DNA of 64,000 bases from Pseudomonas sp. TH10. Its GTDB lineage: Bacteria; Pseudomonadota; Gammaproteobacteria; Pseudomonadales; Pseudomonadaceae. Below are positions 5,756-6,804 of this stretch, in pieces. Under the pieces are notes generated by a model. The model was given only the letters and a program-made list of their open reading frames with translations. It did no database searches and was not told the DNA's origin. Positions within the stretch are counted from its first letter, which is position 1; each line of letters begins with the position of its first letter. The stretch lies in assembly GCF_016651255.1 (NCBI RefSeq), contig NZ_JAEKEG010000033.1, forward strand, positions 1 to 64,000, read 5' to 3'. Made by a program: the position numbers and the translations under genes.

Positions 5756-6430
5756 CTACTGAGAGCCCAGCGCCCTCTTCGCCCGCGCGGCAGCTTGCTC
5801 CTGACCGGCCTGGGCCAGATCGTTCGCGGCCTTCAGCCAGCGTTGCTGATCAACATCGGCAGGGATCTGCTCCGGCTTCTGAAGCAGTACCGCCCAGCCG
5901 CCGCCGTCCTTGAACGCCGACTCGAATGAACTGAAGCTCATCAGGGTCCGGCGATCCATCCCGGCGCGCAACAGAACGGTCTGCTTCTGGGTGTTGTAGC
6001 CGGACAGAATGGCGTAGCGCGGCCCAGCCCAGAACGCCGAGCCTTCGTTGAACCGCACCATCACCGGATAACCGGCGGCCACCTGGGTGAGCAATGCTGG
6101 CAGATCGTCGTCCAGGGGGTAGACCACCAGGCCATATTCCCGGGCAAGGTTGACCATGTTCTGCTGCAGCTGAGCCTCGGCTGCCGGCAGACGCAGCGGC
6201 TTGTCGAGCAAACCGGGCGTGATCGCGATGCCCTGTTGCGACAGCAGGCTGGCCAGCACCTGCGGACCGCTTTGATGGGTCTGCCCGCGATAGAAGGTGC
6301 CACTGAGCTCGACCCGTTCCGGCAGCCGTTTGATTTGCGGCGAGACGCTGCCGGCGCAGCCAGTCAGGCTCGCAAGGCTCCAGGCGAACAGCGCTGCAGC
6401 CATAATTCGAGGAAATACCCGTACCATCAT
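5756..6430 (-). CDS. Lipoprotein with degenerate C39-peptidase-like fold
   Basis: This 224-residue protein starts with a lipoprotein signal peptide ending in SLTGC (Cys25 lipidated), so it is probably membrane-anchored in the envelope. The body resembles the papain-like C39 fold: a helix beginning QSGPQVLASLL, where active members read QCGPxALxxxL; then a PVMVRF strand and a GPRYAILSGYN strand, where active members carry a catalytic His (HYAVLxGY). Here the cysteine position is Ser54 and the histidine position is Arg138. If the alignment is right, it cannot be a thiol protease and would act as a binding or scaffold protein. The C-terminal helix resembles a TPR end. Family assignment is by eye. 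Confidence 0.62.
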   Translation of the reverse strand: MMVRVFPRIMAAALFAWSLASLTGCAGSVSPQIKRLPERVELSGTFYRGQTHQSGPQVLASLLSQQGIAITPGLLDKPLRLPAAEAQLQQNMVNLAREYGLVVYPLDDDLPALLTQVAAGYPVMVRFNEGSAFWAGPRYAILSGYNTQKQTVLLRAGMDRRTLMSFSSFESAFKDGGGWAVLLQKPEQIPADVDQQRWLKAANDLAQAGQEQAAARAKRALGSQ

Positions 6431-6648: not shown

Positions 6649-6804
6649 ATGAGCCTGACCATGACTATCGTAATGCTGATTGCCGGATGGCTGGCCGTGG
6701 CCACCGCCATGCTGTGGGGCGTGCTGCGCATTTCCCGCCGCCACCATCACCCGGTGCAACCTGCACCCCTGGCGCAGCCCCGCAAAACCGTATCTGCGCA
6801 CTGA
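6649..6804 (+). CDS. Small single-pass membrane protein
   Basis: This 51-residue protein has one strong membrane segment (residues 3-25, TMTIVMLIAGWLAV), then a basic and His-rich cytoplasmic tail (RISRRHHHPVQP). The start at 6649 is fixed by an AAAGAGGAGG ribosome-binding site 5 bases upstream; the longer upstream frame has no such signal. A strong bidirectional hairpin follows. I recognise no function. Small proteins of this kind often bind and regulate larger membrane complexes, but that is only a general expectation. Confidence 0.6.
   Translation: MSLTMTIVMLIAGWLAVATAMLWGVLRISRRHHHPVQPAPLAQPRKTVSAH

Follow-up and report, generated by a model that had tools for sequence, protein, structure and literature searches.

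A widespread predicted Pseudomonas lipoprotein with a C39 peptidase fold and replaced catalytic residues

Described C39 proteins and the lipoprotein of the window

The closest described relatives of the lipoprotein reported here are the PA2778 family cysteine peptidases (NCBIfam NF033920), and both PA2778 and PA2779 receive passing mentions only in the portions of the papers checked for them. C39 domains that have lost activity are also described, and the relevant part of PMC8277102 presents the C39-like domain of HlyB (3zua), located at the N terminus of an ABC transporter, as lacking its nucleophile but keeping its His, and as tethering cargo, which it does not cut, by the face away from the C39 substrate site. 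According to the part of PMC4619724 used here, the pseudoprotease CspC activates another protease. Neither the long family nor the existence of dead C39 domains is new, but we found no study or description of the short free-standing class in the open-access literature on PA2778, PA2779, C39 lipoproteins, and periplasmic pseudoproteases.

The gene lies in a 64,000-nucleotide stretch of Pseudomonas sp. TH10 (the window), and its product and parts are as follows.

5756 to 6430, minus strand: pseudo-C39 lipoprotein gene, 224 aa (open reading frame and translation, ATG start, NF033920 match)
6359 to 6430, minus strand: signal peptide, residues 1 to 24 (lipobox LTGC in the sequence; model helix at 7 to 23)
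6356 to 6358, minus strand: Cys25, the lipidation site (Cys in 93/93 short proteins)
5861 to 6325, minus strand: C39-like domain, residues ~36 to 190 (mean AlphaFold2 pLDDT 92.2; 3erv aligned to 37 to 188)
5762 to 5848, minus strand: C-terminal helical hairpin, helices 195 to 207 and 211 to 223 of the model, where the TPR region of the long form begins

The NF033920 model matches the window protein with 136 bits (E 1.4e-39), under its 150-bit cut-off, and homology to the PA2778 family covers the C39 domain and extends as far as the first TPR helices. The two forms have a lipobox in common, and in many of the genomes they occupy the same chromosomal place. The short form differs in lacking the catalytic Cys and His, the oxyanion Gln, the TPR array, and the neighbor PA2779, and in having new arginines; it ends after one helical hairpin, whereas the long form carries further TPR repeats. 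A Pfam scan of the window protein returns no family, neither PF13529 nor PF03412, and both of these match all three long relatives scanned; for NlpC/P60 proteins the comparison consists of this Pfam result and the best structural matches.

AlphaFold2 models the window protein with a pLDDT of 92.2 and a pTM of 0.84, and one long relative with 91.8 and 0.86. In Foldseek searches with VIA-align superposition, the best match of the window model is 3erv, a putative C39 peptidase of Bacillus (Z 15.1, rmsd 2.6, 150 residues), and ComA (3k8u, Z 14.5) and PCAT1 (9azl, Z 14.2) have the same fold; both 3erv and ComA have a Cys in the aligned column in which the window protein has a Ser. The dead domain of HlyB also superposes (Z 11.9, rmsd 2.8, 127 residues) and, in the portion of its description considered here, likewise combines a C39 fold with a lost nucleophile, but it is part of a transporter with the His in place, whereas the window protein is free-standing and has an Arg at that position. 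The original prediction of a lipoprotein with a C39, papain-like fold therefore agrees with the LTGC lipobox and its Cys25, and with a confident model whose top structural match is a C39 protein. The product is probably a periplasmic lipoprotein, and the lipobox is what suggests an outer membrane location.

Replacement of the catalytic residues and new arginines

Matches are present in 99 of 144 related genomes, and 120 loci were aligned, comprising 100 of the 101 matches from those genomes and 20 picked from another search. They divide into 93 short proteins (219 to 236 aa, all from Pseudomonas) and 27 long ones (287 to 347 aa, 15 from Pseudomonas). Residues 54 and 138 of the short proteins occur as the pairs Ser/Arg (67), Gly/Arg (20), Ser/His (3), and Gly/Gln (3); we refer to the three Gly/Gln proteins as class B and to the other 90 as class A. 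A further 29 loci were added later, of which 20 are long, all with Gln, Cys, and His, and nine are short (seven class A and two class B), all without the Cys; two of these nine keep the His and one (L277, class B) has Gln at position 49. The positions that distinguish the window protein from the long form are listed below, in which "extra" denotes the seven later class A proteins.

6269 to 6271, minus strand: Ser54, in place of the catalytic Cys (profile alignments and the relatives' columns)
6284 to 6286, minus strand: Gly49, at the oxyanion-hole Gln position (Gln in 27/27 long, 1/90 class A, 0/3 class B)
6017 to 6019, minus strand: Arg138, in place of the catalytic His (Arg in 87/90 class A and 4/7 extra class A; His in 27/27 long)
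6287 to 6289, minus strand: Arg48, new, beside the oxyanion-hole position (Arg in 88/90 class A, 1/7 extra class A, 0/27 long)
6053 to 6055, minus strand: Arg126, the most constant new arginine (Arg in 89/90 class A and 7/7 extra class A; Leu, Met, or Phe in 27/27 long)

Ser54 and Arg138 belong to the motifs QSGPQVLASLL (residues 53 to 63) and RYAILSGY (residues 138 to 145), and in an hhalign comparison of the short and long profiles (probability 100, E 1e-44) they align with the columns of the catalytic Cys and the catalytic His. The Cys of the long profile aligns in turn with the cysteine of 3erv, of a PCAT peptidase, and of ComA (E 4e-7, 0.011, and 0.14), and its His with the His of 3erv. 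Cys is present at 54 in 27/27 long proteins but in 0/93 short ones, which have Ser (70) or Gly (23), and His is present at 138 in 27/27 long proteins but in 3/93 short ones, the others having Arg (87) or Gln (3). Column 49, which aligns with the oxyanion-hole Q11 of ComA, is Gln in 27/27 long proteins and 1/93 short ones, and a Cys past residue 30 is found in 0/93 short proteins. Among 80 named contigs chosen by their closeness to the query, the Ser/Arg pair is present in 79 and the first motif is unrecognised in one.

The profile alignments thus bear out the original prediction that both the catalytic Cys and the catalytic His have been lost. Of the two replacements, only Arg138 is conserved across the short proteins (87/93), whereas Ser54 is not. 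The further claim that the enzyme is dead is strengthened: because Gln, Cys, and His are lost together, position 54 is Gly in 23 of the 93, and there is no other Cys past residue 30, peptidase activity of the short form is, judged from sequence, very unlikely.

Arg48, Arg126, and Arg138 occur together in 84/90 class A proteins and in 0/27 long ones, and class B proteins have none of the three. The seven later class A proteins, which are divergent and come from low-scoring genomes, have the three-arginine set in one case, Arg48 in one, and Arg126 in all seven, with position 138 being Arg in four, His in two, and lost with a deleted loop in one. Arg126 is present in 96/97 class A proteins overall and is therefore general, whereas the full arginine set is characteristic of only the main part of class A. 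Since the model places residues 123 to 129 and 136 to 146 in strands, Arg126 and Arg138 are likely neighbors in space. The 21 columns that are invariant in the long form fare differently in class A, with L59, P82, G120, P122, V123, G144, L154, and F169 kept in 85 to 90 of the 90 proteins, while 0 to 3 proteins retain each of Q49, C54, E91, W137, and H138. Class B has lost L75 and P82 as well.

Spread, chromosomal context, and descent

Across the genus, 288 of 298 genomes have a match and 10 do not. The best E-values show a gap between 2.4e-53 and 6.6e-49, and 250 genomes lie on the class A side by hand count, such that the figure of ~250 class A genomes is drawn from the score gap, with sites read in only part of them. 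In the remaining 38 matching genomes the sites were read, and 32 are long and six are class B; among the latter, G412 carries a class A domain as well. Outside the genus, no match in an order-wide sample has an open frame shorter than 289 aa, and short forms are seen in that sample only in Pseudomonas, with sites read in 12 outgroup rows outside it.

The median pairwise dN/dS of the short form is 0.30, with 0.284 for the C39 part and 0.62 for the signal and linker (diverged pairs, and rough), and the equally rough values for the Pseudomonas long form are 0.24 overall and 0.164 for the C39 part. This points to purifying selection that acts on the short form less strongly than on the long one. 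With a dN/dS of ~0.3, its fold residues kept, and a presence in ~250 of 298 genomes, the short form looks functional.

The neighborhoods of the two forms overlap in part. An FAD-dependent amine-oxidase-like gene, which is under the cut-off for all NCBIfam models (best 203 bits), is downstream of 46/93 short and 10/27 long loci, so the two forms share a chromosomal location; where G027 and G148 carry both forms, the short gene is the copy next to it. The neighbors of the lipoprotein gene in the window include a D-Ala-D-Ala endopeptidase gene and a TerC-family gene, as well as a small divergent gene for which neither Pfam nor NCBIfam has a family above cut-off.

6649 to 6804, plus strand: divergent 51-aa protein, probably with one membrane helix (homologue beside 87/93 short loci and 0/27 long loci)

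At locus L072 of G027 the gene directly upstream of the short gene is one that we take to be OprF-like, and the upstream neighbors accordingly differ between lineages.

PA2779 (NF033919) is above cut-off in 15 of 119 genomes, which are exactly those with the long gene, and it adjoins 26/27 long loci, but 0/93 short ones; the genome of the 27th long locus (L088) has PA2779 by genome search. Four short-only genomes give weak PA2779 matches (21 to 24 bits) in large frames, and the window's own genome assembly, which is 78% complete, gives no PA2779 match, with the controls also silent. Within 1200 bases on either side of the 93 short genes there is no trace of a PA2779 remnant (best E 0.059) or of a TPR tail remnant (best E 0.12), and the same search recovers PA2779 upstream of 26/27 long genes as a control. 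We note that five genomes have another PA2779 homologue, with a lower score (81 to 100 bits), that does not lie by the long PA2778 gene (G027:C3, G082:C36, G060:C9, G148:C16, and G069:C21).

Every joint gene tree unites classes A and B in a single clade (SH-aLRT 96; 100/96; and 99/95 with extra rows), and they remain joined after removal of the active-site columns. When class A is left out, however, class B nests within the long forms (96/89 with L082, L084, and L086; 92/87 in a set of 14), and a grouping of class B with long relatives is not rejected in AU tests (p 0.31 to 0.34, with the groups named after the trees had been seen). In a tig-clpX tree, the class B genomes (96* with G412, which has both classes) group with six genomes that have only the long form (87), apart from the set that contains the class A genomes (98*). 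With extra rows, the nearest long relatives of class B become L269 and L271 (97/95), which come from genomes (G426 and G527) placed away from class B on the tig-clpX tree. From these sequence comparisons, class B may have been inactivated independently of class A; the tree pattern would also be explained by long-branch attraction or by a single origin with later transfer. A fuller scenario is that inactivation of the same PA2778-type envelope peptidase happened twice in Pseudomonas, with Cys and His lost on both occasions, the TPR region cut at nearly the same point, and PA2779 dropped, and that the dead site of the larger lineage was remodeled into a receptor lined with arginines that binds an anionic ligand of the envelope, giving rise to a class of free-standing C39 pseudoproteases. 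We regard this scenario as unlikely, and it is weakened because, once extra rows are included, the long proteins closest to class B come from genomes other than its species-tree neighbors.

Possible roles of the short form

The role that we tentatively favor, at somewhat less than an even chance, is that class A proteins keep the C39 fold, do not cleave, and hold an anionic ligand in the converted cleft, acting as an envelope binding or regulatory protein. Comparison supports their descent from a long peptidase of the PA2778 type encoded at this same location, with the TPR tail and the neighbor PA2779 having been lost, and the cleft that held the oxyanion Gln, the Cys, and the His would now present Arg48, Arg126, and Arg138 in most of class A, assuming that these residues are close in space. 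Candidate ligands would be an acidic peptide, a peptide C terminus, or a peptidoglycan stem carboxylate, and a role as peptide-binding or regulatory scaffold, as the original prediction had it, may be envisaged on this basis. The anionic-ligand idea is limited to class A, since class B has none of the three arginines, and our confidence in it is lowered by the finding of the full set in only one of the seven divergent class A proteins. The arginines may instead serve folding.

A related possibility is that the short form is a pseudoprotease whose working surface lies elsewhere, for instance on the C-terminal hairpin or on the side facing away from the cleft, and which serves as a chaperone or adaptor like the HlyB domain, with the arginines only stabilizing the emptied site. 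We consider this rather improbable, if the strongest of the rivals: the dead HlyB domain is among the structural matches of the window model and binds its cargo opposite the C39 substrate site (in the part of PMC8277102 referred to above), W198, G209, and A217 of the hairpin region are identical in 93/93 short proteins, and Arg48 and Arg138 vary in the divergent class A proteins. However, no link from the protein to a transporter was found, and Arg126 sits at the old site in 96/97 class A proteins. The homology of the short and long forms, and their presence together in three genomes (G027, G148, and G551), would also suit a regulator or decoy of an active long PA2778-type peptidase or of PA2779. 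This is a poor prospect, as the long gene is a second match in only those three of ~250 class A genomes, and PA2779 is above cut-off only together with the long gene among the 119 genomes, the four short-only matches being weak.

Two other explanations are more improbable still. Retention of the fold is consistent with an enzyme of altered chemistry that uses Ser54 or the arginines, but Gly replaces Ser54 in 23/93, the oxyanion Gln is gone in 92/93, and none of the 93 has a Cys past residue 30. Likewise, the absence of a match in 10/298 genomes and the relaxed selection relative to the long form (C39 part 0.284 versus 0.164) could reflect a relic drifting towards loss, but dN/dS is well below 1, the lipobox Cys is present in 93/93, and the spread is broad; we think it highly doubtful that either of these accounts for the short form.

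The preferred reading, of a cleft converted to hold an anionic ligand, concerns a widespread Pseudomonas envelope pseudoprotease whose active relatives are still at the same place in other species, and the change from cutting to, probably, binding is therefore open to study through natural before-and-after pairs. In one genome, the class A domain of locus L284 (G412:C41, 1447 to 3591) is fused in frame to an M11/gametolysin-like metallopeptidase (PF05548, E 2.1e-8), and we set this fusion aside as a functional clue, with a full-length match in G412 alone of 57 genomes. There is also a warning for annotation, in that catalytically dead proteins can reach the NCBI cysteine peptidase cut-off. Nine dead proteins (G164, G075, G014, G148:C3, G073, G079, G071, G037, and G015) reach that of NF033920 and would therefore be misnamed, with G015 doing so only when its neighbors are included in the frame.
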